From Candidatus Enterovibrio altilux (GTDB lineage: Bacteria; Pseudomonadota; Gammaproteobacteria; Enterobacterales; Vibrionaceae), in contig NZ_CP020660.1 of the NCBI RefSeq assembly GCF_002381345.1, forward strand, positions 744,001-808,000: 64,000 bases of DNA. Direction: 5' to 3'. Of this stretch, positions 33,510 through 56,639 are shown piece after piece. The notes below the pieces were generated by a model that searched no databases, had not been told where the DNA came from, and was given only the letters and a program-made list of their open reading frames with translations. The position numbers and the translations under genes are program-made. Numbering within the stretch: position 1 is the stretch's first letter; the number at the start of each line of letters is the position of its first letter.

Positions 33510-34635
33510 TGGTAATGATACACTAATACGCATTGAAGGTGCTTGATTTTTTAATAATTCAAGCTCATGCTATAGAGCATAAAAATTTTTTAACCGATGG
33601 TCAAAAATTAAAACTCAAGATTTAACACGATAAGACTTGTGATAGTCTCGTGTGTGACCACATAAACGTGGTACTTCTTACATCCGGAGGTTGGAATATA
33701 GCCATGATTTTTCAAGCTCTACGTATCCATGAAACAACGGGTTTACGTCACCTCAAAAATCACGAACAGTCTAAGCAACTACAACCTGAAAATAGTAATT
33801 TAGATAGTCTTCTTGTCACTACCGTGATAATAGTCCTTAATAAACACTTCAACAAGATTATTTACCACCATACCTATCAAATTATTGTCTATGTTGATAA
33901 GCAGTTTTGGGTGCAATACACGGTAGTAGGTATGAATAAGTGGCTTTATTATAAATAAAACTTTAGGTTATACGATGCTAAAAGGGACTTCACACAAACT
34001 TGATGCCAGAGCGCAAGAGGATTTTATCCGTCGCAATGATACATTGAAAGGCGCTAACATCAAGGATGTATCCATGTTATTACTTAATGCCACTCACTCA
34101 ATACAAGCAATAAAAATCATACATAAATGGATACACAAAGGGCAAAACACAGTCCTCACAACAACTGGAATCAATAATCATCTCAGCATTATTGACATCC
34201 CTGATCTTAACAACATTGCAGGTATCATAGTTAGTCAGCATGAGACAACCGATAGCAAAAACATTGCCTATTTTTTCAGTAAATTAAGAAAAAATTTTTC
34301 ATTAACTTATCAGCTCCATATGGTTTTTAATAGAACCAGATATCATCAAAATAATTTCGTCAAAAATACAGCATTTATTTTTAATATTCAGCTTCACTAC
34401 CTTCCTTCTTATAGCTTAAATATCAATTTAATAAAACGACTCTGGACGGTGATTAATAAAAAATCAAAAAACAACGTTTACTTTAAAAGCAAACGTTGTT
34501 TCAATAAGATCATAGAAGACTTTTTTACTGTGCTTTTTTTAAAAATTATAAAACTTTTAACGCTCCAAATAAATAATAAGTTTCAGGTTTTCAAGCCTGC
34601 ATCTTCAAGTTAATCGAATATATTAAAACGAGGAG
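33510..34635 (+). mobile_element. IS630-family element, broken copy
   Basis: It is homologous along its length to 20095-21165. The N-terminal frame (ALRIHETTGLRHLKNHEQSK) ends at 33958. A second frame, 33975-34613, has the catalytic half with motif positions HMVFNRTRYH and LHYLPSYSLNINLIKRLWTV, in which the catalytic Asp and Glu positions are substituted. It is therefore inactive. The right edge lies about 10 bases before smg. Confidence 0.8.
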
Positions 34636-34644
34636 AGGCTAGCC

Positions 34645-35121
34645 ATGATAAATATCCTAATATATCTATTTGAAATTTACATCCATAGCGATGTAGCGTT
34701 AATAGTAGATCATAATGAATTGACTGATGAACTTCTTCAAGCAGGTTTTCATCAAGAAGATATATATAAAACAATAGATTGGCTCGAAAAACTAGCGCTC
34801 TTGCAAGAAGATAATAAAACTCCATATGTGACGGGAAACATGCTCACTTCGGTACGTATTTTCACGTCAAAGGAGATGGAACGCTTAGATACAGAAAGTC
34901 GTGGTTTTCTCATGTTATTAGAACAAACCAACGTATTGAATCCGGAAACACGTGAAATGGTTATTGATCATGTGATGGCATTAGAAACCCAAGAACTTAT
35001 ATTAAACGACCTTAAATGGATAGTCTTAATCGTATTATTTAATATACCTAACAATGAATACGCATATAATCAGATGGAAAAGTTACTTTACTGCACTTCA
35101 GAAAATGAATTTCTGCATTAA
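34645..35121 (+). CDS. smg: Smg family protein (DUF494)
   Basis: Smg is a conserved gammaproteobacterial protein of unknown function, always near dprA and def. The 158 residues match. It opens INILIYLFEIYIHSD, has LQAGFHQEDIYKTIDWLEKLALLQ, and ends with the long helix block LDTESRGFLMLLEQTNVLNP and LETQELILNDLKWIVLIVLFN. GAGGAG precedes the ATG. dprA, its usual upstream neighbour, is missing; an IS630 copy is there instead. A topA-zinc-finger remnant follows in the expected place. Confidence 0.92.
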   Translation: MINILIYLFEIYIHSDVALIVDHNELTDELLQAGFHQEDIYKTIDWLEKLALLQEDNKTPYVTGNMLTSVRIFTSKEMERLDTESRGFLMLLEQTNVLNPETREMVIDHVMALETQELILNDLKWIVLIVLFNIPNNEYAYNQMEKLLYCTSENEFLH

Positions 35122-35264
35122 GATTGACTATTTTCGTCTGTTTAAGGTAATACAGCTTTAATTAAAAAAATAAATAAATTGCTTTTTAGCGCGTATAAAC
35201 ATACACTTAAGCAAATAGAATACTGCTTTCTATATTATAGAACTCTTATTATTAATTACAGTAA

Positions 35265-35500
35265 ATATGCACTCTGTCAAAAAATCACACAAGCCACCCT
35301 GTGTGTAAGTGTACAATCTTCTTGAATCATAAAAGTGGACACATTGTTAAAGAGCTGAAGGTTACATTATCCTGAATGTAACAATGAATTAATACGGTAA
35401 CAATTTTAATTGGACATGTTTATCAATTATTCGTCTATCCTGAGCGTATAGAATACAATTCTACGAAAATAAATCACGGTTAAAGAAACTTTTTATCCGT
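35265..35500 (+). pseudogene. Topoisomerase-type zinc-finger protein (YrdD-like) remnant
   Basis: Between smg and tsaC, where relatives carry a topA-type zinc-finger gene, the plus strand reads HKSGHIVKELK and, after a frameshift, YPECNNELIR. This resembles the family's GHIVKxLxxxxCPxCGxELVLR. Other cysteine pairs are lost. The evidence is short and relies partly on position. Confidence 0.45.
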
Positions 35501-35628
35501 ACCAAATTTCTTCTAAGTGCCAATTCACAATTGATTATTCAAACTCATCAACAGTCAATGTGAAGTATGTAGAAATACTTTATTGTAACAAATATTAACA
35601 TAAACAGTTTAGCATTAAGTGTATAATT

Positions 35629-36752
35629 GACTTTATTTCCTAATTCGAGTTCAGATAGCCCGTCCCAACATGATTAACAATTAAACAATCACTGTTGTTT
35701 TAAACACATCTAGTCCTATCAGCTTATTTAACGCTTTTATCATGACGTAAATTTTGCTAATCTAAATATTATGATCTTTTAATTTCAATCTTACTCCTAG
35801 TGATTTTTTAACTCGAAACGTTGCCGTTTCTAGTAGGGAACGTTTATGGGAACCATACCTCATTTTCCGATGCTAATTTGAACCATATAACTTCTAGTAG
35901 CTGACCACTAAATTACACAGCTGACCTCGTGTCCAAAGAATTCCTCTTGTTATTGGTAGAATGAGTGAAACCGCTCGTTTAATGCAAACGGTTACGCAAC
36001 ATTATCTGGTGTCGTAAGCACCATCAGCTAATATTTTATAGGTAACATTTCACCGCCAGTCGCATTTGGTGCACTTAACTCAACAGCAATGACTTCATGC
36101 GTATTAATATCTATCACTAAATGTAACCTGCACCAGACTCGCCATTTTTCTCCGCAGTAGACTTTGAGCCCCATAGAGTTAATGGCTCAGTATCAGATGC
36201 TGTTTTTATTCTTCGTTTTGAACGAAACGTTAACCATTTTTGCTCGCTTTCTAATACATAAATAGTGAGGGCATAACAACAGCAGTTAAACAAGTTTAAA
36301 AACAGAATTAATGAATTCTTGCAGACTTCTTAATGGCATTGAAAATACGCATTTAACCATCAGGGCCATCGTAATAGCTAAGTCACTAAATAAACGAGAC
36401 CTCCCATGATTATCCTACTTCATTTGATTCCAGTTAGTTGTTTTATAGCGAAAATTATTCATAAACCTGAATATTTAAGTGAGCCTCACTGTTTAAAGTG
36501 TTGCTTGGAAATTTAGTTCCCTTATTAAAAAAATAAAGCCAATTACCATAAATGTTCCCTAGCAGAAACAGCAATCGTTTTAATTAATAAACTACTAAAA
36601 GGAACATTGAGCCTAAGAAATCACACAACTCAGGTTAGTAAAACCGACGCCATAATAAAAGCGTTAAATAAGCTGACAAAATTAGGTGTACCTAACACTA
36701 AAGCAATTGTCTAATAGTAAATCATACGGGGATTAGCTATTTAAACTTGAAT
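35629..36752 (-). mobile_element. Compound IS5 derivative, minus orientation
   Basis: A minus copy runs from its right end at 35629 (GACTTTATTTCCTAATTCG) to its left end at 36540 (AAAATAAAGCC). It is joined to a plus right-end arm from 36541 (AATTACCATAAATGTTCCC) to about 36752. The junction matches the recurrent breakpoint with two base changes. The transposase is dead. Confidence 0.8.
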
Positions 36753-37455
36753 TAGGAACTAAATTACCAATCTACGCTCTAAACAGCTAAGTGCACTTAA
36801 ATATTAAGGACTATGGACAAATTTTAATCCATTATAGCTTATTAACATACTGTATTAATGAAGCAACCATTCAATACTTATTCATTGATTCTACAAGGCT
36901 CAAAGCCTACGGTGAAAACTAGTAGCAAGTAAAAAAACATGGCACTGACAGTAAACATCGAATATAGTACAAGTTGTATTTGGTGGTAAATGTATAAATA
37001 CGCATGAGATCATTATTTTTGAGTTAGATTCATCAAATGTCACTAGCGATGAAGTACTGCCTAGCTTACTCAAACAGACCCAATGAAGAATCAATGCAAT
37101 ATCAGGTGATGATGTTTACGACCTAAGAAAGTGAAGCAGTACTGATCGTATTAAACGAGTAGTTCCCCTTATCTTACGAAGTAAGGGAGTAGTTTTTCAG
37201 AAACGAGGTTACCCGTGAAATCTAACAGTCAGTTACCAAAAATTATACGATTCAAATCCGTATTAATGTTCAAAATTAAAAAATTGCTTGAAAAAAACAT
37301 TGAGCCTAAGGCATTAAAATACCCAAATTAACGAAAGTTCCACAATAATAAAAGCGTTAAATATGCTGACTAAGATAGTTATACCTAATACGAAAGCGAT
37401 TGTCTAATAGTTAATCAAGTTGGGACTTACTATCTGAACTCAAATGAGGACACTA
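36753..37455 (+). mobile_element. IS5-family element fused to the preceding one
   Basis: The right end of the compound element passes straight into ACTAAATTACCAATCTACGC, which lies 20 bases inside a left end. This suggests recombination between similar ends rather than insertion. The rest is a plus copy with the 5' half of the transposase deleted, ending near 37455. Confidence 0.7.
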
Positions 37456-37461
37456 GGCCTC

Positions 37462-37605
37462 ATTAATTCAAAATATCAGTAACATACGATTGATTACAAT
37501 TCAATTATAATACTTTCTGCTGGTCGTTTGCTAACTCATTTGACTCATAAACTTAAATATTTAAGTGCATCCAACTGTTTAAAACGTAAGTTGAGTATGG
37601 TATGC
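37462..37605 (-). mobile_element. IS5-family 5' fragment, minus orientation
   Basis: About 140 bases match the left-end leader and first transposase codons in reverse (CATTAATTCAAAATATCAG to AAAACGTAAGTTGAG). It lies just upstream of tsaC and may have supplied its present leader. Confidence 0.65.
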
Positions 37606-37631
37606 CGAATAAAAATTTTTAAAGGGGAATA

Positions 37632-38189
37632 TTGGCCAGTGTTGAGCAGTGTGTTGCTGCACTTTTGCGTGGTGAAGTCATTGGATACCCAACTGAGGGT
37701 GTTTTTGGTGTTGGGTGTGATCCTGATAACATAACGGCTATTCAAACTTTACTTGCCATCAAAAAGCGCGATAAAGCGAAAGGATTAATCCTTATCGCAG
37801 CACAGTCCACACAATTAGACGGGTATATTAATATTGACAATTTAAACAAAACAATAAAAGCCGATATATTCTCTAGTTGGCCTGGCCCGGTTACATGGGT
37901 AATACCAGCAGGCAAAAAAATCACAGATTGGGTTACTGGACAATTTGATACGGTTGCTGTACGTGTGTCTAACCATCCAGATGTTAAAGCGCTTTGTATG
38001 GCATTTGGCAAACCTATCATCTCGACTAGCGCCAACCTCAGTGGCAAAGAGCCGTGTCGAGTTCAAAGGGAAGTCAACATTCAATTTGGTAATAAAATTA
38101 CTTATATTTTAAATGGTAAAATTGGTGGCCTTAATAAGCCAACCAAGATCCGGGACGCGTGTTCTGGTAAAGTGCTTCGAGAAGATTAA
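37632..38189 (+). CDS. tsaC: Threonylcarbamoyl-AMP synthase TsaC
   Basis: TsaC makes threonylcarbamoyl-adenylate for the universal t6A37 modification of ANN-decoding tRNAs. The 185 residues match the family. It has GEVIGYPTEGVFGVGCDP near the N-terminus, IKKRDKAKGLILIA (the KRxxxKGL substrate site), SWPGPVTWVIPA, and PIISTSANLSG. The start is TTG at 37632, with AAAGGGGA four bases before it; no ATG fits. Immediately upstream is IS debris, so the native promoter is gone. hemF follows 30 bases on, as in Vibrio. Confidence 0.95.
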   Translation: MASVEQCVAALLRGEVIGYPTEGVFGVGCDPDNITAIQTLLAIKKRDKAKGLILIAAQSTQLDGYINIDNLNKTIKADIFSSWPGPVTWVIPAGKKITDWVTGQFDTVAVRVSNHPDVKALCMAFGKPIISTSANLSGKEPCRVQREVNIQFGNKITYILNGKIGGLNKPTKIRDACSGKVLRED

Positions 38190-38195
38190 ATATAA

Positions 38196-39137
<942 letters not shown>

Positions 39138-46579: not shown

Positions 46580-47959
46580 TTATTTAAAAAAAAAAGGACT
46601 TGGTTGAAATAGTCGCTCTACATCTGGGATATATTTTTTATCTACCAAGAACATCACCACGTGATCATCTTGTTGTATAATAATTTTATCATGTGCAATT
46701 AGAACTTCCTCTTCCCTAACTATTGCCCCAATTGTTGTGCCTGGTGGTAGCTTTATCTCACCTATAGCACGCCCAACTACTTTAGAATTACTAGCATCTC
46801 CGTGTGCAATGGCTTCAATGGCTTCAGCTGCACCACGACGGAGAGATGATACGTTAACAATATCAGCTTTACGTACGTGCGTTAGCAACGCTGAAATTGT
46901 TGCTTGTTGTGGTGATATTGCGATATCAATAACACCGCCTTGTACCAAGTCAACATAAGAGCCACGCTGGATAAGCACCATCACCTTCTTAGCACCAAGG
47001 CGTTTTGCCAACATGGCTGACATAATATTGGCTTCATCTTCATTAGTTACCGCAATAAAAACATCCATCTGATCGATCTGCTCTTCGCTCAATAGCTCCT
47101 GATCGGCGGCATCACCACAGAATACAATTGTATTTTCTAAAATTTCTGATAGATATTCTGCACGCTTTGGGTTGCGTTCAATCAATTTGACGCTGTATGC
47201 ACACTCAAGGCTTCTTGCTAAGGCAGCACCAATATTACCACCACCAACAATCATTATATGATTATATGGTTTTTCAAGACGTTGTAGTTCACTCATTACA
47301 GAGCGAATGTGATTACTGGCTGCAACAAAGAACACTTCATCATCTGCTTCAATGATAGTTGTGCCCTGTGGACGTATCGGACGGTCATGACGGAAAATAG
47401 CGGCAACACGGGTATCAATATGCGGCATATGTTCACGAAGAGCTGAGAGAGCGTTTCCGACCAGCGGGCCACCATAATATGCTTTTACTGCCACTAGGCC
47501 GACTTTATTATCGGCAAAGTTCACTACCTGTAATGCACCAGGATATTCGATCAAACGATGAATGTAACGCGTCACTAATTCTTCTGGGGCGATAAGGTGA
47601 TCTACTGGGCAAGCATTGACTTGAAATAATTGTTCTTTGGTAGCAAGGTATGCAGGGCTTCGGATTCGTGCGATACGATTAGGAGTATTATACAGGGTAA
47701 AGGCCACTTGGCAAGCAATCATATTGGTCTCATCAAAGTTGGTGACAGCAACTAACATATCAGCGTCCTTTGCGCCTGCTGTTAGCAGTGTGCCCGGGTG
47801 ACTTGCATAGCCTTGAACTACCCTCAAATCATATTTATCTTGTAGTTCTCTGAGGCGCTCGGGATTCTTATCTACGATAGTAATATCATTATTTTCACCA
47901 ACTAAATTTTCTGCCAATGTCCCGCCGACCTGCCCAGCCCCCAAAATAATGATTTTCAT
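46580..47959 (-). CDS. trkA: Trk potassium uptake system peripheral protein TrkA
   Basis: TrkA is the cytoplasmic NAD-binding gate of the TrkH/G potassium channels. The 459 residues hold two RCK domains. The first opens [19 protein letters not shown], with [14 protein letters not shown] and later [11 protein letters not shown]. The second starts near 232 with [18 protein letters not shown] and has [16 protein letters not shown]. Each half ends in a TrkA-C domain. It is the last gene of the def-fmt-rsmB-trkA run, 84 bases after rsmB. The TrkH partner is not in the window. Confidence 0.97.
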
Positions 47960-48043
47960 AACGCTTGTATGACCCTCAATATATTTTGACTTGCTATAAT
48001 TAACAGCAAAATGATTTTTTTATATTTAATAAAAAATCGTAAA

Positions 48044-49324
48044 TTATAAAGTTTTGCTGATTGTGGCGTAGTAAAAACCATCCATGTTTTCTTGTCCAGA
48101 AATAATTTGGCGTCCTGGTGCGTCTGGTGTACCTATTTTAAGAGTGGCATTATTTGTGCGTGCAAGAAATGCGGCAATTTGTTCTCCATTTTCTTGTGGC
48201 GCAATTGAGCACGTCGCATACACCAGCGTGCCACCAGGTTTTAACTGTGCCCACATTGCATCTAAAATTTCAGATTGAAGTGATACTAGTCGTGTAATGT
48301 CATCAGCACAACGTAGCCATTTGATATCCGGGTGACGGCGGATAATGCCAGTTGCTGAACACGGTGCATCAAGCAAAATGCGATCAAATTGTTCGCCATG
48401 CCAACAATCAGTTGGATAGCGAGCATCGCCACAAATAACCTGAGCTTTAAGTTTTAAACGGGTTAAATTTTCTTTTATACGAGTCAAACGAGTCGAATCA
48501 ACATCCATCGCAATCACTTTGACGCCGTTTTGGTGCTCTAATATATGGCATGTTTTTCCGCCCGGAGCTGCACAACAATCCAAAATTAATTCACCTGATT
48601 GTGGATTAAGGTAGTTAATTGCAAGCTGTGCGGCGGCATCCTGCACAGAAACTAAACCATCAGCAAAGCCAGGAAGTTCTAAGACACCACACGGAGAAGC
48701 AAGCATGAGTGCATCGTTAGCTTCCGAGTGAGTGTAAGTCTCTGTGCCATTTGCAGTTAGAAGAGTTCGATAACTATCACGTGTGTTGTGAACGCGATTT
48801 ATGCGTAGCCACATGGGTGCTTTTGCATGGTTGGCTTCAACCACTTGTTCCCACTGTGTTGGGTAAGCGTTCTGCAGTAATGCCAACAACCAGTCTGGGT
48901 GATTGTATTTACCTGAAGCATGGGTTACCGCAGCGGTATCTAAAATTTTTTGGTTGCGCTGATAACTGCGCAAGACTGCATTAACCAAACCATGCAGCTG
49001 AGGTTTTTTTAATACTTTGGTCGCATTAACTGTTTCAGCAACAATAGCATATAGTGGAATGCGCATGAAGGCCATTTGGTATAGACCAACTAAAATCAAG
49101 TGGTGGAATACACGTTGTTTACCTTTCAGTGGTTTATTCATCAAACTTTGAGTGATGGATTCAAGGCGAGGAAGCCAACGAAGTACACCGTAGCAGATCT
49201 CTTGCAATAGTGCGCCATCTCGTGGTAAAATTTTTTGTTGAGCTGATGGTAGTACTACAGTTAATGATTGCCCTTGATCTACCACTTGATAGATAACCTG
49301 TGCGGCAACAGCTCTTACATTCAT
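48044..49324 (-). CDS. rsmB: 16S rRNA (cytosine-967-C5)-methyltransferase RsmB
   Basis: RsmB methylates C967 of 16S rRNA using SAM. The 426 residues match. An N-terminal NusB-like domain (to about 140) has [16 protein letters not shown]. The catalytic domain has the SAM motif [16 protein letters not shown] (about 245-262), [18 protein letters not shown] with one catalytic Cys, and [13 protein letters not shown] with the other. It lies between fmt and trkA in the standard operon. The frame is intact. Confidence 0.97.
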
Positions 49325-49420
49325 AAAGGTACCTGCGTCAGGGAGTGCTCATAATTCAAAACTTACCTACAAAAAACTTATTACGAGCCACTAGCAAAAA
49401 CTAGCAAGCTCGTTTCCAAA

Positions 49421-50377
49421 TTATAGAGTATTACCAGGTACAAACCATTCTCGTCGGGAATTCAAAATATCCGCTGCACTCATTTCTTTTTTACTAGGTG
49501 GCTGAATTGAAGTGAGACGTAATATGCCATTACCAGTTACAATACGAATACCTGTTTTATCAGCAGACAAAATAATACCCGGTGCATAATCACTCTTTCC
49601 TGGTTCGGCTTCTGCATTCCACACTTTAATGTTATGTTCAACACCATGTACAGTCACAAAAAAATAACTCATTGGCCATGGATTAAAAGCACGAATACAA
49701 CGTTCAATTTCAACAGCACTTAGCGTCCAATCCACCAAAGCTTCTTTTTTGCTGAGTTTTTTCGCGTAGTTTGCAAGTGCATCATTTTGTTTTTCAGCTA
49801 AAGAGCGGCCACTTGCAATATCATTTAAACAATCAATCAGTATATTTGGCCCTAATTCAGCCAACCGTTCATAAAGCGTAGCACTAGTCTCTTTCTCTTC
49901 AATACTGAGGGTTGCTATTCTTAGCATGTTGCCAGTATCAAGGCCTTCGTCCATCTGCATGATAGTAACTCCTGTTTCTACATCTCCCGCCCAGATAGCA
50001 CGCTGAATGGGTGCTGCACCACGCCAACGCGGAAGAATGGAACCATGAGCGTTAATACAACCTAATCGAGGTATTTTTAATACTTCCGTTGGCATAATCA
50101 AACTGTAAGCTACAACAACCATGATGTCGGCTTCAATAGCGGCTAATGTTTGTTGTGCGTCTTTAGATTTCAAACTCGTAGGCTGATAAACTGGAATATT
50201 TTTTTCTATTGCCAACATTTTTACGGGACTAACTGTTAATTTCTTCCCCCGATTTGCATGACGATCAGGCAGCGTATATACCGCGACCACGTTATGATGT
50301 GAAGATAATAATGCTACTAAATGCCGAGCAGCAAAATTCGGCGTACCAGCAAATATAATACGTAATGATTGGTTCAA
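49421..50377 (-). CDS. fmt: Methionyl-tRNA formyltransferase
   Basis: Fmt formylates initiator Met-tRNA. The 318 residues match. It has [19 protein letters not shown] at the N-terminus, [20 protein letters not shown], and the formyl-donor motif [15 protein letters not shown] with the catalytic Asn/His. A C-terminal tRNA-binding domain runs from about 205. The start codon is TTG at 50377, preceded by TGAGG that overlaps the def stop, so it is coupled to def with seven bases between. TTG may lower expression. The frame is intact. Confidence 0.97.
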
Positions 50378-50384
50378 GAAAACC

Positions 50385-50897
50385 TCAGTTGGTTCTTCCG
50401 TTAGTGCGTTTTATTTTTTCGAACTTTTGTTTGATACGTTGTTGCTTCAATGGTGACAGATAATCGACAAATAATTTACCTTTTAAATGATCAAGTTCGT
50501 GTTGAACACAGATTGCTAGCAGATTATCAGCATCAAATTGAAACTCTTTGCCATGGCGATCAAGCGCTGTCACCGTCACTTCTGATGCACGAGATACCAA
50601 TGCGCGAACGCCTGGTATAGATAAGCAACCTTCCTCAATACCATCTTCTCCTCGTTTATCTAGAATGACAGGATTAATCAGCACTATAGATTCATTCCGA
50701 TAGTCAGAAATATCCATTACAACGATACGTTCGTGAATATCGACTTGCGTCGCCGCAAGGCCAATACCTTCTTTTTCATACATTGTTTCAAGCATGTCAT
50801 TGATAACTTTTTGAAGTTCTAGTGTTATGCTTTCTACTGGCTTCGCCACGGTGCGTAAGCGATCGTCCGGGAAGGTCAAAACCTGCAATAGACTCAT
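50385..50897 (-). CDS. def: Peptide deformylase
   Basis: Def removes the formyl group from new proteins. The 170 residues match. The three motifs are complete: [10 protein letters not shown] (about 45-54), EEGCLSIPG with the metal-binding Cys (about 91), and QHELDHLKG with both metal-binding His and the catalytic Glu. AAGAGA lies before the ATG. It heads def-fmt-rsmB-trkA. The divergent neighbours of relatives (a LysM gene, dprA) are not seen; IS debris begins about 160 bases upstream. Confidence 0.97.
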
Positions 50898-51056
50898 AAA
50901 TGTCTCTTAAATAGGTTGCTTTGTGCCATATCCAGCCTCAATGATTGGGCTAATTTTAGACATTTTGCAAATCAAATGACAGCATCAAAATAGAAAGCAT
51001 ACTTTTGGAAACAAAGAATATTTTAAAAGCTGATCATACTTCATTTGATGGATCTG

Positions 51057-51203
51057 AGTATTATTTCCTACATCAGGGAACTCAATCATCAACCTACGAT
51101 CTAAACAACTAGGTTCACCTACAGTATTTAGGTCTATAGACAAGTTTCGCTACACAATAAATTAACTAAAAAAAGTCTAATCAAGCTTTAATTAATCATG
51201 ACT
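51057..51203 (+). mobile_element. IS5-family left-end fragment
   Basis: It runs from near GAGTATTATTTCCTACATCAGG to TTAATTAATCATGACT, a plus left-end leader cut at the point where a minus copy begins. Confidence 0.7.
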
Positions 51204-52286
51204 GTATTTCTCAATTCTAGTTCAGATAGCAAACTTTAACATGATTAACTAATAGGCAAGCGTTTTCATTTTAAGCATACCTAGCCCTGTTAACGTGTTT
51301 AGCTCTTTTACCATAACGTAAGTTTCACTAATCTGAGCAATATAATCCCTTAGGCTCAATGTTCCCCCTTAGGAATCCTTTAACTCGAAACATTGTCGCC
51401 TTTAATAAGGAACGTTTATGGTAATTATACCTCATTTCCCAATGCTAATTTGAACCATATAACTTCTGGTAACTAACCGCTAAATTACACAGATAACCTC
51501 ATTCCCAAAAAGTTGCTCTTTTTCTTGATGAGATGAGTGAAACTGCTCGTTTAAGACAACTCGTCCCGTAACATCGTCTAGAGTCGTAAGCACCATCGCC
51601 CAATGTTTTATTAATTCTTCAGCGGGTCTATTTGAGTAAGTGAAGTGGAACTGCACCATAGGTCACATTTTATGCACTTAACTCAGCAGCAATTATTTCA
51701 TGCGTAGTTATATTTATCCCCAAATATAACTTTCATCAAACTCGACGTTTATCGTCAGTCCAATGCTTTTTTACTTTCCCTCTCTTCTTTACTGTAAATT
51801 TTTAACTCGGTAAAATCAATGATTAAGCAGTGGATGGTTCCTTTTATCTTCTGCTTGAACGCGACATTAACTGTTTTAGTTTACTTACTAATGCGTGAAT
51901 GATGAGGGCATAACAGCATCAGTTCAGCATGTTTGAACAGAAAATTAATGAATCCTTACAGATTTTTTAATGGCATTACAAATACGCATCTAGCCACGAG
52001 AACCGTCATAATAGGTAAGTCGCTAACTACATGAGGCCTTCCATGATGACCCCCCCATTTAGTTTGATTCCATAACTAAATGACTTTTTCATCAAACCAG
52101 AACATTAGTGAACCACTATTAATTAAAACTTAACTATACTGCTTCCAGTCAGTTGTTTTGTAGCGAAACTTGTTCATAGATCCAAATATTTAAGTTAGTC
52201 TAGCTATGCTTCAAGTGTAGGTTACTAATTTAGTCCACTCATTTAAGAGATAAAATTTATCTAAACTCGGATTGGGAAACAAAGCC
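51204..52286 (-). mobile_element. IS5-family element, minus copy, with a 28-base plus right end
   Basis: The minus copy spans from its right end at 51204 (GTATTTCTCAATTCTAG) to its left end near 52258. Then comes a plus right-end tail, CTAAACTCGGATTGGGAAACAAAGCC, to 52286. Together with the plus fragment at 51057, this looks like a minus copy lying inside the remains of a plus copy. Confidence 0.75.
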
Positions 52287-52482
52287 TCTGGACGGATATA
52301 TTTTAGTCAGTAAAATATTCATTTACTATTTTATAACAATGAAAACTTTTAATGTCGATTATAGTAAAATATCATGAAAGTTACGCAAGCAATGCAGAAA
52401 ATTTTAAAATTTTTATTGACTTCACAACTTAATCGTGTAAAATTCATTTTTTAATCATATAAATAATTTATTTTGTATTAGT

Positions 52483-52530
52483 GTTCTTTAATAATTTAGC
52501 TTATATAATTTGTGTAAGTACTTGTATTTT
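52483..52530 (+). promoter_or_regulatory. rRNA leader with boxA-like antitermination sequence
   Basis: GTTCTTTAATAATTTAG followed by TTTGTGTAAGTACTTGT matches the rRNA leader consensus TTCTTTAACAATTT...TGTGTGGGCACTTG. It lies about 160 bases before the 16S relic. It is one base off in the boxA core. No clear promoter with upstream element is visible before it. Confidence 0.6.
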
Positions 52531-52683
52531 TCAATAGACATAATATTTATCAGTAGACAGTGCAACATAAGATAACTAGATTCGTCAGAGTAAGCGCATC
52601 AATACGGTCAATGTGATTTTATTACATAGGAAAAAATAATTAAATATAAACTTAACCTTTTCTTTATAATAAAATTTAAATTT

Positions 52684-53814
52684 ATTTGAAGAGTTGAATT
52701 ATAACTAAGATTAAGCGCTACAACAGGCCTAACACATGCAAGTGTAACGGTAAGATTTTAGGAGCTTTCATTTACTAATGACGAATAGCAAATAAATTAT
52801 TAATAACTAAACACTTACCATTAGAATAAAAAATAATTTTTAAATATTTTACGTTAAGAATAGACCCAATGTAAATTAGTTCATTTGATAAAGATGAATT
52901 AGTTAAACTAAAACTAAAATAGAATTTAAATTTTTATTGAGTAGTAGCAGTAAAGCATATTGCACAATATACTTCTAACAGTGGAAAAATAGTATGATTA
53001 ATATTTAATATTATTTGACGTTATCTGCAGAAGAAGGGCTAGCTCACTCCATTGCAGCAACCATGGATAATACGGAAGGTTCGAACATTAATTAAAGTTA
53101 ATGAACACAAAACACATGCAGACGGTTTGTTCAGCAAAGATGTGAAAAGTCCCCAGGCTGAATTTAGAGCAATATTTTGAATTAGTAAGCTAGCATTTTG
53201 CAAAAAAGTAGCGTTTCATGTATAGTGTAAAAATTCATAAAACTCTTAAGAAATACTGATGGTAGGAAAAGCTTACCCTTTAGGTAAGAACTAACGATCA
53301 GATGCGAAAGTAATCTTCAATTTTAGTTTTCGAAGCTAACGCATGGAGTAGACCGTCAGAAACCGTGAAACGAGTACAGCATGGTTTCGTCATTTCATGC
53401 TGTACAATATTATTGTACATTCCATAACGAGCGTAACTCGTATTCTTATTTGCCCGCTAGTTATATCGATAACTTCAGAAAAACTACCGGCAAATAAGTT
53501 GGAAAAAATGTAAGGATGACACCCGATTAGCAGTAGTAAGACTACACATATCCTATAATATAGGATACATCTCAAAAAAGTATATTGTAGTCCAAATTAA
53601 ATGCATGCGATGTCATGAGATAGTAACCACTAGTAATCGTAGATCAGTGTGCTACAGGAAACACGTTACAAAACTTTGTACACACTGACAATTACACCAT
53701 AGGAGTACATTGCCTCATAAGTAAATAACTTAACCTTAAGAAGGACGTTTACTACGGAGGACATAACTAGAACTGAAACTATAGCAAGGTAACCTAAAGC
53801 TGGGCACTTCCTTA
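52684..53814 (+). pseudogene. rrs: 16S rRNA pseudogene
   Basis: Order and sequence follow 16S rRNA from end to end over about 1.13 kb instead of about 1.54 kb. Landmarks are GGCCTAACACATGCAAG (52726), GCAGAAGAAG with AATACGGAAGGTT (53030-53082), GCAGACGGTTTGTT (53118), GAAGCTAACGC (53331), GAGCGTAACTCG (53429), AGTAATCGTAGATCAG (53632) and GCAAGGTAACC (53783). Functional sites are destroyed. The 530 loop reads ATTGCAGCAACCATGG. The decoding site reads GTACACACTGACAATTACACC. The 3' end CACTTCCTTA lacks the anti-Shine-Dalgarno CCTCC. Several helices are deleted. It cannot make a working ribosome. Confidence 0.93.
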
Positions 53815-53924
53815 ACAATACTATTGATTCAGGTATTCACAGAATTTATATAGATTGAACAGTAATAGAGTGGAGAAGTTCAAGAACTTGAATGCGTTAG
53901 TAATTCGTTTGCTAACAACTGCGT

Positions 53925-54000
53925 GTCCCATTCGTCTAGAGGCCTAGGACACCGCCCTTTCACGGCAGTAACAGGGGTTCGACTCCCCTATGGGACACCA
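53925..54000 (+). tRNA. tRNA-Glu (anticodon TTC), in rRNA spacer
   Basis: It is 76 bases long with acceptor GTCCCAT/ATGGGAC, T arm GGGGTTCGACTCCCC and encoded CCA. The loop CTTTCAC gives TTC. The anticodon stem reads CCGCC/GGCAG, with a C-A mismatch where relatives have GGCGG, which may be an early sign of decay. Confidence 0.9.
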
Positions 54001-54002
54001 TC

Positions 54003-54078
54003 GGGTCGTTAGCTCAGTTGGTAGAGCAGTTGACTTTTAATCAATTGGTCGCAGGTTCGAATCCTGCACGACCCACCA
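54003..54078 (+). tRNA. tRNA-Lys (anticodon TTT), in rRNA spacer
   Basis: It is 76 bases long with acceptor GGGTCGT/ACGACCC, anticodon TTT in CTTTTAA, T arm CAGGTTCGAATCCTG and encoded CCA. All stems pair. Confidence 0.95.
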
Positions 54079-54394
54079 TTCTCTTCACAAGAAGATAAAT
54101 TATTTATATTTTTATAATTGTAGCACTGAATTTAATCGGGTAAGGGGTCTCTTAAACACAGGAAATATACTTTCAACCTGCTATAATTCACTTCTTAAAC
54201 ACATTTATGAAATGTCTTTAAGAAGTGAATGTAATTTTCCGTAAGGAAAAATATGACATTATGCTTTAATAATTTACAAAACCGATAGTATTAATAAATT
54301 TACTCCTCTAAATTAGTGAGAGAAAAATTTAATTTATATGAAAAAAATACCATTTAGGTTTTTATAACGTAGCTTAGCTTGAATATTGAGCCTA

Positions 54395-54672
54395 CATGTG
54401 TAAGATAGCTATGAAACATAGGCGTTCGGTTAGTGTGCATGCACTCTTTTGAATAGATGTAAAAATAGTTCATGGGGCAGTCTCTATAGACTCAACATAT
54501 ATAAGGAACGTCTAATCAAATAACATTTTTCACCTACGAGCTAATATAAACTGCAAAATTTGATATCTGAATCTGAATAGTTTTTAAAGGTTATTCAAGA
54601 CCATGATATAAGAGATGAAATGTGTAAGTCTTAAACTGGCCTATACTAATTTTTTTAAGTTTAACCATGTAA
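54395..54672 (+). pseudogene. rrl: 23S rRNA 3' relic
   Basis: Only the last domain is legible: AGATAGCTATGAAACATAGG near 54402 (23S: GTAGCTATGTxCGGAA), AAGGAACGTCTAATC near 54503 (23S: AAGGAACGTTTAAGAC), then TGTGTAAG, CCTATACTAAT and AAGTTTAACCATGTAA (54620-54672), matching the 3' end ACCAGTACTAATxxxC...CTTAACC. The remaining 2.6 kb is missing; 54079-54394 holds nothing I recognise. Confidence 0.75.
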
Positions 54673-54833
54673 TGTTTGTAGAATTATAGTAAACTCAAGA
54701 CAAAATAATAAGTGTATGCTGATATACAAGTTAAATTTGTAATAAATTTTTATATTTTGCTATTATATAACCGAGTGAAAAAACCGGTAATACATCTAGA
54801 GTAAAGTCAAAGACACGATACAATAACAAAATT

Positions 54834-54952
54834 TGCTTGACGACCATAGCGTTATGGACCCACCTGATTCCATGCCGAACTCAGTAGTGAAACGTAACAG
54901 CGCCGATGGTAGTGTGGATTTCTCCATGTGAGAGTAGGACATCATCAAGCTT
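54834..54952 (+). rRNA. rrf: 5S rRNA
   Basis: The sequence follows Vibrio-type 5S: CGACCATAGCG, GACCCACCTGATTCC, ATGCCGAACTCAG, GCGCCGATGGTAGTGTGG and GAGAGTAGGACATC are all in place at full length (about 119). The ends pair (GCTTGA/TCAAGC) with one C-A mismatch. It appears functional, although the 16S and 23S of the same operon are dead. Confidence 0.92.
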
Positions 54953-55056
54953 CTAATTTAGCATCATCTTTTAATAAAATGATGAAGATCATAGAAAAAT
55001 AAATTTTCGTTCTGAACGATAGTAATAATATAGAATGGAGATACTCATGTTCATGT

Positions 55057-55133
55057 GGAGCGGTAGTTCAGCTGGTTAGAATACTGGCCTGTCACGCCGG
55101 GGGTCGCGGGTTCGAGTCCCGTCCGCTCCGCCA
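55057..55133 (+). tRNA. tRNA-Asp (anticodon GTC)
   Basis: It is 77 bases long with acceptor GGAGCGG/CCGCTCC, anticodon GTC in CTGTCAC, T arm GCGGGTTCGAGTCCCGT and encoded CCA. It follows 5S as in Vibrio rRNA operons. From 55134 to 55600 there is no gene I recognise; a short TAGGC/GCCTA hairpin at about 55159-55178 may be the operon terminator. Confidence 0.95.
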
Positions 55134-55599
55134 TTTATAAAAAGTTCAACTAATATTATAGGCTTTTTTATGCCTATCGAGTATAGCATTCAATGCTGTA
55201 ACTCAGATCAAGCTTTTAAAGCATTCGTTTCGACAAAATATAGACCTATGGAACGGCTTCACAACGTTGTAAAAAGATGCTGGTGTTTGGCTATTTTGAT
55301 TTAAACAAATCCACGGTTGAGTCTAACCAATAAGTCCACTATATAATAAATACAACTATTATGCCGATAATATTCAATTAAAATATGTTTTTGGTTAATT
55401 AAATACAGGCTTAATAAATTTTCCCTGGAGAGTTGGTAGAAAGGAAGTTCCATCATTTTTCAAGTCTTACGCATGGATCATATATTCAAGGGATTACATT
55501 TAGTGTAGTATACTCATTTGTATGAAGTGATTGTGATGGGTAATGTTATTAAAATTTTTAACTTAAATATACTGACCAAGCTCTTCTACAAAATGTAAT

Positions 55600-56327
55600 T
55601 TTTTCTAGGCTTACTTGAGCCGTATCATTTACGATAAATAATTGCTTAATTTAGCGGGTACTTTCACTCCCAAGAAGCTGTTTTTTTTAGCGGAATGAAT
55701 GAAACTGTTCGTTTACTTCGCGCAGTTTTTTTACACTATCTGGTTTCGCAAACATTATTGCTTAATATTTCCTTGATTCTTCGGTTGGACTATTTGAGCA
55801 AATGAGGTAAGACTTCACCATCAGTCACATGTGGTGCACTTATCTCAAGAGGAATGTTTTTACCGTATTTATAAATACCATTAAATGTGACTCGTACTAA
55901 ACTTTATTGCTGGATTTTTTACTTATTATTCTATCTTCACCATAGACTTTTAGCCCCATAGAGTCAATGGCTAAACACGATGTGGTGTCTTTAATTTTCA
56001 TCTTGAACGCGGCGTTAACTGTTATTAGCTCGCTTGCTAATGCATGAATAGGAAGGGCATGATAACGGCAATTATAAACTAGTTTAAAATAAAATTAATG
56101 AAATCTTTCAATGGCATTCAAAATAACTTTTAGATCATGAAAGGCATCGTAATAGCAAGTCGCTAAACAAATAAGATCTCCCACAATTACCTAACTGAGC
56201 CTGATTATACTGCTTCCAGTTATGATTACTTTATAGTGAAACTTATCCATAAATCAAAATATTTAAATGAGTCTAACTGTTTAGAACGTAGATTGATAAG
56301 CTAATTCCCTGGTTCAGGCACAAAGCC
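55600..56327 (-). mobile_element. IS5-family element lacking its right end, minus orientation
   Basis: The minus transposase is legible from about 55605 (CTTACTTGAGCCGTATCATT) to the left end at 56327 (TTCAGGCACAAAGCC). The right end is missing and there are internal deletions. Confidence 0.75.
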
Positions 56328-56480
56328 ATTGCTAATTAACAAATTCCTAGGAGTGACATTGAACCTCTATAAGGGAGCACAATACTCAGATTAGTGAAAT
56401 CTATCAAATGATAAAACTATAAAATACGCTAATAGCGTTACACATACCTACAATAAAAACAATTGTCTAATAGTAAATAA
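56328..56480 (+). mobile_element. IS5-family right-end arm joined to the previous copy
   Basis: It begins ATTGCTAATTAACAAATTCC and follows the last transposase codons (CAATACTCAGATTAGTGAAATC to AACAATTGTCTAATAG). It is arranged like the compound elements, but with the junction moved about 30 bases inward by deletion. Confidence 0.65.
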
Positions 56481-56639
56481 TGCTATATACTTACAGCTAT
56501 TTGATCAAATTATTCAAAAATAGCCAAAAATTATTACCTCCTATTTCTAGTACCGCCTTATTTCTCATTAATAAGACAAAAATAATATGTCCATTTGAAA
56601 GATGCTCAAAAAAATTATAAAGACCAAGGACCATCCTCA

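Follow-up and report, generated by a model that had tools for sequence, protein, structure and literature searches.

Split or unlinked rRNA operons have been reported in host-dependent symbionts (PMC2688493; PMC7761764), including Profftia (PMC8857208), and in Candidatus Evansia muelleri the 16S and 23S rRNA genes form one unit while the 5S stands alone in another (PMC4122945). The authors of the latter, in the portion of their text available to us, left open whether that arrangement arose by rearrangement or from two operons. In addition, 5S pseudogenes and stand-alone 5S genes occur in other bacteria; the broken gene there, according to the accessible text, is the 5S itself (PMC7812874), whereas at the locus described here the 5S is kept and the 16S and 23S are broken. 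The genome description of 'Ca. Enterovibrio luxaltus' CC26 counts "1 operon plus an additional 5S," i.e., four rRNA genes, and 16S relics go unmentioned in its available text (PMC6020299). Our coordinates correct this account, since both 5S genes lie within relics, away from the 16S-23S pair; the genome also holds four 16S relics. Loss of rRNA operons (rrn) and splitting of rRNA genes are already known in symbionts; however, an intermediate state in which decayed operons keep their tRNAs appears to be unreported. No earlier description of such relics was found in a set of mostly open-access main texts, including the accessible parts of PMC10645730 and PMC5649133, and the main text of PMC6773444, as far as available, mentions neither rRNA operon, tRNA, nor 23S.

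The window analyzed here is a stretch of 64,000 nucleotides (C1:744001-808000) from the Candidatus Enterovibrio altilux genome, which comprises 2,143,356 bases in 4 contigs (C1, 1,604,691 bases) and was assembled from short reads at 14x. We take altilux to be the same organism as luxaltus, and the genome to be that of CC26, the symbiont of the anglerfish C. couesii; a LuxC match of 406 bits agrees with a luminous anglerfish symbiont. Two relatives from the same genus were used for comparison. The first, G012 (2.6 Mb, about 40 contigs, LuxC match of 427 bits), served as the sister species and is probably 'Ca. E. escacola' MJ02, and the second, G016 (5.5 Mb, 3 contigs), served as the reference and, judging from its genome size, would be free-living. 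A survey of relatives for 5S (matches in 56 of 61 genomes) was used only to choose these two, and a 16S survey (matches in 25 of 61, with at most five candidates scored per genome) was excluded from any use of copy number. From a further set of 571 matches, in which 80 loci were retained, names and identities alone entered the analysis.

A decayed rRNA operon with intact tRNA and 5S genes

A sequence-only reading of the window had recognized a 16S rRNA pseudogene that retains its order but is about 400 bases short. The pseudogene is located on the forward strand at 52684-53814, its 3' end having been set by reading the sequence, and is collinear with 16S rRNA from 5' to 3' end. Since it spans about 1131 bases vs. 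1545 in the intact 16S, a difference of about 414, the estimated shortfall was right. Neither 16S nor 23S produced a match over the Rfam cut-off in the window region, and under laxer limits the Rfam model returned two collinear 16S pieces (16.4 and 14.9 bits). Global alignment of positions 52684-53822 with the genome's intact 16S scored 2047, compared to 967 +/- 35 (maximum 1079) for 100 base shuffles; scoring was lenient toward gaps and, because the shuffles average 80% identity, the score of this alignment is informative and its identity is not. Blastn blocks (62-76% identity) likewise follow the order of 16S. Compared to G016, the relic is 52.3% identical with gaps counted and 73.5% without. 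Its G+C content is 33%, vs. 50% in the intact 16S, and at sites where the intact copy and G016 agree, G has changed to A in 45% of cases and C to T in 28%. As read from the global alignment, the relic is altered at the 530 loop, in the decoding region, and at the anti-Shine-Dalgarno, in agreement with the losses first proposed.

The 23S rRNA had been described as a mere 3' relic, and two traces were detected on the forward strand. One, at 54370-54448, corresponds to 23S positions 2068-2154 (71.6% identity, E 6e-9), and the other, a weak match at 54626-54721 (61%, E 0.05), lies in the expected order and is probably the 3' end of the 23S with its flank. The gap between tRNA-Lys and 5S measures 757 bases, compared to 3652 and 3612 in two G016 operons. 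In the same stretch, family and tRNA searches recovered four intact forward-strand genes, all of which had been judged well formed: tRNA-Glu(TTC) at 53925-54000 (51.8 bits; 74/76 bases identical to G016), tRNA-Lys(TTT) at 54003-54078 (79.2 bits; 76/76), 5S rRNA at 54836-54950 (82.6 bits, cut-off 38; 107/115), and tRNA-Asp(GTC) at 55057-55133 (65.6 bits; 75/77). The stretch covered by the sequence-only reading stops at 54952, short of tRNA-Asp. That reading had also raised the possibility that these three tRNAs occur only here, which is true of tRNA-Lys(TTT) and tRNA-Asp(GTC), the sole Lys and Asp tRNA genes found in the genome, but not of tRNA-Glu, which has one other copy in another relic.

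Identity to G016, with gaps included, is 92.4% for the working 16S, 92.0% for the working 23S, and 92.2% and 93.1% for the two 5S genes of the genome; the relic 5S genes have thus diverged as little (7-8%) as the working 16S and 23S, and the window copy looks functional. Seven of the eight relic tRNAs, i.e., all but tRNA-Ala(GGC), were compared in the same way. The tRNA-Lys and the second tRNA-Glu are 100% identical, the window's tRNA-Glu and tRNA-Asp as well as tRNA-Ile 97.4%, tRNA-Val 98.7%, and tRNA-Ala(TGC) 90.8%. Next to the sole tRNA-Ala(GGC), a redundant tRNA-Val pseudogene has fallen to 68.4%. Of 34 pairs mapped from the Rfam alignment of the window 5S, 28 are standard in that copy and 29 in the genome's other copy, vs. 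28 and 27 in G016; in the sister species, two good copies have 29 and 28 and a decayed copy 21. Relative to G016, both partners of a pair have changed in a compensatory manner once in the window 5S and twice in the second copy, and one pair is newly broken in the window copy.

The gene order and boxA leader of the locus are those of a Vibrionaceae rrn operon as seen in G016, with 16S and 23S present as relics only. Five G016 operons were examined, and each shows the order found here: boxA leader, 16S, tRNAs (in four of the five), 23S, 5S, and, in two, tRNA-Asp. Their 16S, 23S, and 5S match the working copies, whereas the 16S and 23S of the window relic are dead. None of the five combines Glu-Lys with Asp; the G016 operon near def-fmt carries Ile-Ala and Asp-Trp, and the window has Glu-Lys and Asp next to def. 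Unlike in G016, smg-tsaC-hemF is split from def-fmt-rsmB-trkA in the window (34627-39134; 46580-50906), a rearrangement near rrn; these seven protein names are presumptive. Diverged repeats flank the relic at 51200-52250 and 55600-56600, and also border both the second relic and the intact operon. They are probably dead insertion sequences; five pieces were scanned, and the sole hint of a transposase fell under the cut-off (PF13737, E 0.11). Elsewhere in the window, a transposase-like ORF at 20516-21145 matches DDE_3 (PF13358, E 1e-17), and the ORF at 33975-34613 looks similar to it.

The working 16S-23S pair and the relics elsewhere

A search for other rrn operons, as the sequence-only reading had advised, uncovered an intact 16S-23S pair at C1:937.8-942.6k. 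Across the whole genome, the family cut-offs are exceeded by a single 16S, a single 23S, and two 5S genes, and neither 5S gene, at C1:798.8k and 846.8k, adjoins the pair. Within the 11 kb stretch containing the pair, no tRNA was detected and no 5S match was obtained at E values up to 10. Similarly, the 2 kb downstream of the intact 23S aligned to 5S with a score of 60, compared to 56.6 +/- 3.3 (maximum 66) for 200 shuffles. Thus, the working 16S and 23S share one unit and the 5S genes are unlinked from it, as in Evansia. In the class of unlinked 16S-23S genes, by comparison, the 16S and 23S are far apart; here, 363 bases separate the two. This spacer aligned best with the tRNA-less spacer of G016, scoring 344 (179 for shuffles) where the next best spacer scored 286 (158 for shuffles), and the sister's spacer gave 322 vs. 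313 (without shuffles), a small margin under scoring that penalizes longer spacers. These scores only suggest that the intact pair may have descended from a tRNA-less operon.

Three other 16S relics were identified. That at C1 about 847.8k keeps tRNA-Ile, tRNA-Ala(TGC), 23S traces, and the second 5S (C1:846788-846903, 93.0 bits); its 16S trace is the weakest of the set (62% over 152 columns, E 3e-7) and was missed by genome-wide blastn. The relic at C1 about 349.4k keeps tRNA-Glu and tRNA-Val(TAC), and that at C2 about 127.7k has the decayed tRNA-Val and an intact tRNA-Ala(GGC). All 37 tRNA matches were assigned. Those for Lys, Asp, Glu, and Ala sit without exception in rrn relics, where the only tRNA-Val(TAC) and the only well-formed tRNA-Ile(GAT) are located as well. 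A degenerate gene that ARAGORN called tRNA-Ile(GAT), at C2:124090-124166 on the reverse strand (L067 1091-1167), was set aside; it is 59% identical to the relative's tRNA-Ile and presumably resembles an initiator tRNA with anticodon GAT in place of CAT. The two tRNA-Glu genes (C1:349061-349136; window 53925-54000), both in relics, are 97% identical, and one might suffice.

In the sister species, a 16S relic with Glu-Lys-Val has a decayed 5S upstream; this 5S is directly upstream of the promoter of the decayed 16S (L070 6525-6927, on contig C5 of G012), and the two are perhaps remains of tandem rrn operons. A second copy has Ile-Ala, a decayed 23S, a good 5S, and Asp, and its 16S is well kept where seen, being cut by a contig end. 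Further, a 23S trace adjoins tRNA-Ala(GGC), and a 16S-23S-5S operon without spacer tRNA is present, its 16S also cut by a contig end. Since the assembly breaks inside 16S, the number of intact 16S genes in this genome is uncertain. Behind its intact 23S lies a 5S, which is missing from that position in CC26. The tRNAs for Lys, Asp, Glu, Ala, Ile(GAT), and Val(TAC) are confined in the sister to rrn copies that have decayed in whole or in part (39 of 39 assigned). Among columns changed in the 16S relics of both species, 73 of 134 have the same change.

Promoter and boxA sequences of the relics

Upstream of the window's 16S relic, and absent from its earlier description, we observed an rRNA-type P1 promoter, TTGACT-N16-TAAAAT, at 52416-52443 on the forward strand, with hexamers and a 16-base spacer equal to those of the intact operon and the G016 rrn leader. 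It is followed at 52483-52497 on the same strand by a boxA antitermination signal, GTTCTTTAATAATTT, identical to that of the intact operon. The exact promoter occurs once in the 64 kb window vs. 0.06 expected, for a pattern derived from these very leaders. The boxA pattern GTTCTTTAAYAATWY has four matches in the genome, all at rrn loci (two relic leaders plus the leader and the spacer of the intact operon), its reversed control has none, and in the sister its two matches both lie in rrn leaders. Since the pattern was written to fit known rrn leaders, its matches at rrn loci are expected, and the result is informative for its absence elsewhere. The 847.8k relic carries TTGACT-N16-GATAAT and a boxA with one difference, and a 16S relic of the sister also carries promoter and boxA.

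Retention of the core bases of promoter and boxA, which were picked after the alignment had been inspected, was compared with the decay of the 16S relics. In the window, all 27 of 27 are kept (P 0.002 under the decay rates of the window's 16S relic), or 26 of 27 when G016 is the reference (P 0.013). The sister's relic keeps 26 of 27 (P 0.0008). For the second relic at 847.8k, with rates taken from the sister's relic, the values are 24 of 27 (P 0.03) or 23 of 27 (P 0.07), and this retention, considered alone, would be a weak indication of constraint. The relics at C1:349k and C2:127.6k contain neither the promoter nor the boxA pattern, and the tRNAs at these two loci therefore need another promoter.

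Origin of the relics and its implications

The genome thus presents a dead 16S and 23S beside intact tRNAs and 5S that are unlinked from the working pair, and promoter and boxA sequences in two of the relics. We consider it very likely that the window locus is an rrn operon that decayed while the tRNAs and 5S that could not be spared were kept and, because the same decay struck three other loci, that rrn functions have become divided across loci. The proposal that the locus is a tRNA operon derived from rrn is supported, given the sole tRNA-Lys and tRNA-Asp and the constrained 5S, and can be widened to a complementary set of functions split between the working pair and four relics. According to this explanation, 16S and 23S would have decayed once the symbiont needed just one working 16S-23S pair, and selection would retain parts that have no copy elsewhere: tRNA-Lys, tRNA-Asp, probably tRNA-Glu, and the 5S. 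Loss of rrn copies would be free until the last copy of a tRNA or 5S is hit, so that tRNA-bearing operons could not be deleted whole and their 16S and 23S would decay instead. A single long transcript, driven by the old rRNA promoter and boxA, would most likely cross the dead 16S of about 1.1 kb, and tRNA-processing enzymes and 5S maturation may release the tRNAs and 5S from this transcript, the remainder being degraded; the window 5S would be used in ribosomes. Transcribing a dead, untranslated kilobase would invite Rho-dependent termination, and boxA may have outlived the 16S because antitermination would block it. With the same decay at the other loci, tRNAs would be supplied from four relics and 5S from two. 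Several points count against this explanation: tRNA-Glu and 5S are each kept twice, which selection on sole copies would not require; the window 5S scores below the other copy (82.6 vs. 93.0 bits) and has its newly broken pair; two of the four relics lack both promoter and boxA patterns, and retention in the second relic is weak by itself; the sister's 16S relic keeps conserved sites slightly better by one of two counts; and the assembly comes from short reads at 14x.

It is possible, though we think it unlikely, that the tRNAs and 5S are functional but expressed from new promoters nearby, the rRNA promoter and boxA being undecayed leftovers. Two relics do keep tRNAs without either pattern, and promoter-like sites are common by chance (18 vs. 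15.1 expected in 52300-55300). Also, both elements are AT-rich, and A and T are the bases that the decay spares; however, the 27 of 27 bases kept in the window are improbable even with base-specific decay rates. Exact boxA matches survive at rrn loci only, no second exact copy of the promoter exists in the window, and the promoter's spacer length is unchanged though the 16S lost about 414 bases. In an rrn-derived tRNA-5S operon, the tRNAs and 5S would be transcribed from the rRNA promoter; the promoter and boxA sequences are kept here.

The remaining explanations concern the 16S relic itself. Could it still work, whether as an rRNA that is divergent or in fragments or as some other structured RNA? 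Its order is preserved end to end, and the sister's relic keeps conserved sites somewhat better by one count (551/890 vs. 32/62 variable sites; 81/126 by the other), which could reflect slight sparing there. The window relic, however, keeps 484 of 719 sites that are conserved across E. coli, G016, and the intact copy, vs. 33 of 46 variable sites at which both Enterovibrio copies agree against E. coli, or 81 of 102 if identity with one of the two Enterovibrio copies is enough. Retention by base, conserved vs. variable, is 0.85/0.91 for A, 0.63/0.44 for C, 0.41/0.62 for G, and 0.85/0.95 for T over a small number of variable sites (52), with no clear or consistent sparing of conserved sites. Considering also that the key loops are altered and that an intact 16S exists, we reject a working relic as very improbable. 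Likewise rejected as very improbable is a mis-join or assembly error as the source of the 16S damage. The genome is known from a single short-read assembly of 14x coverage, but the decay is spread over the gene with a G-to-A and C-to-T bias that is not error-like, while the tRNAs, 5S, promoter, and boxA of the same stretch are clean. Moreover, four loci are affected, the sister, for which a separate library was sequenced, carries a Glu-Lys 16S relic of its own, and the published count of four rRNA genes, in the text available, agrees (PMC6020299).

Returning to the decayed operon with its retained genes, we lean modestly toward a broader reading in which no locus makes a full rRNA set and ribosomes would thus draw on transcripts of two or more distant loci. 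This would amount to an irreversible partition, with a tRNA-less copy for 16S and 23S and with tRNA-5S operons driven by rrn promoters and boxA antitermination, in which the 1-kb dead 16S is a spacer only, and it would be the intermediate through which old symbionts acquired split rRNA genes. Judging from its published account, as far as available, Evansia represents the end state, whereas CC26 still shows decayed 16S and 23S beside the 5S; both are reduced symbiont genomes (PMC4122945). In the other symbionts with split operons, tRNA-keeping 16S relics are not described in the accessible texts, and in CC26 the 16S and 23S remain linked while the 5S is unlinked (PMC2688493; PMC7761764; PMC8857208).

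Split or few rRNA genes are a frequent end point in symbionts, reached by a route that is unclear, and CC26 and its sister preserve intermediate stages, in which redundant operons decay in situ while indispensable tRNAs and 5S within them stay. This yields a testable rule, i.e., that the location of sole-copy tRNAs and 5S sets which remnants persist, as well as a natural experiment on whether transcription through long dead RNA depends on boxA antitermination. Finally, genome descriptions that list "1 operon plus an additional 5S" can conceal a split gene set.
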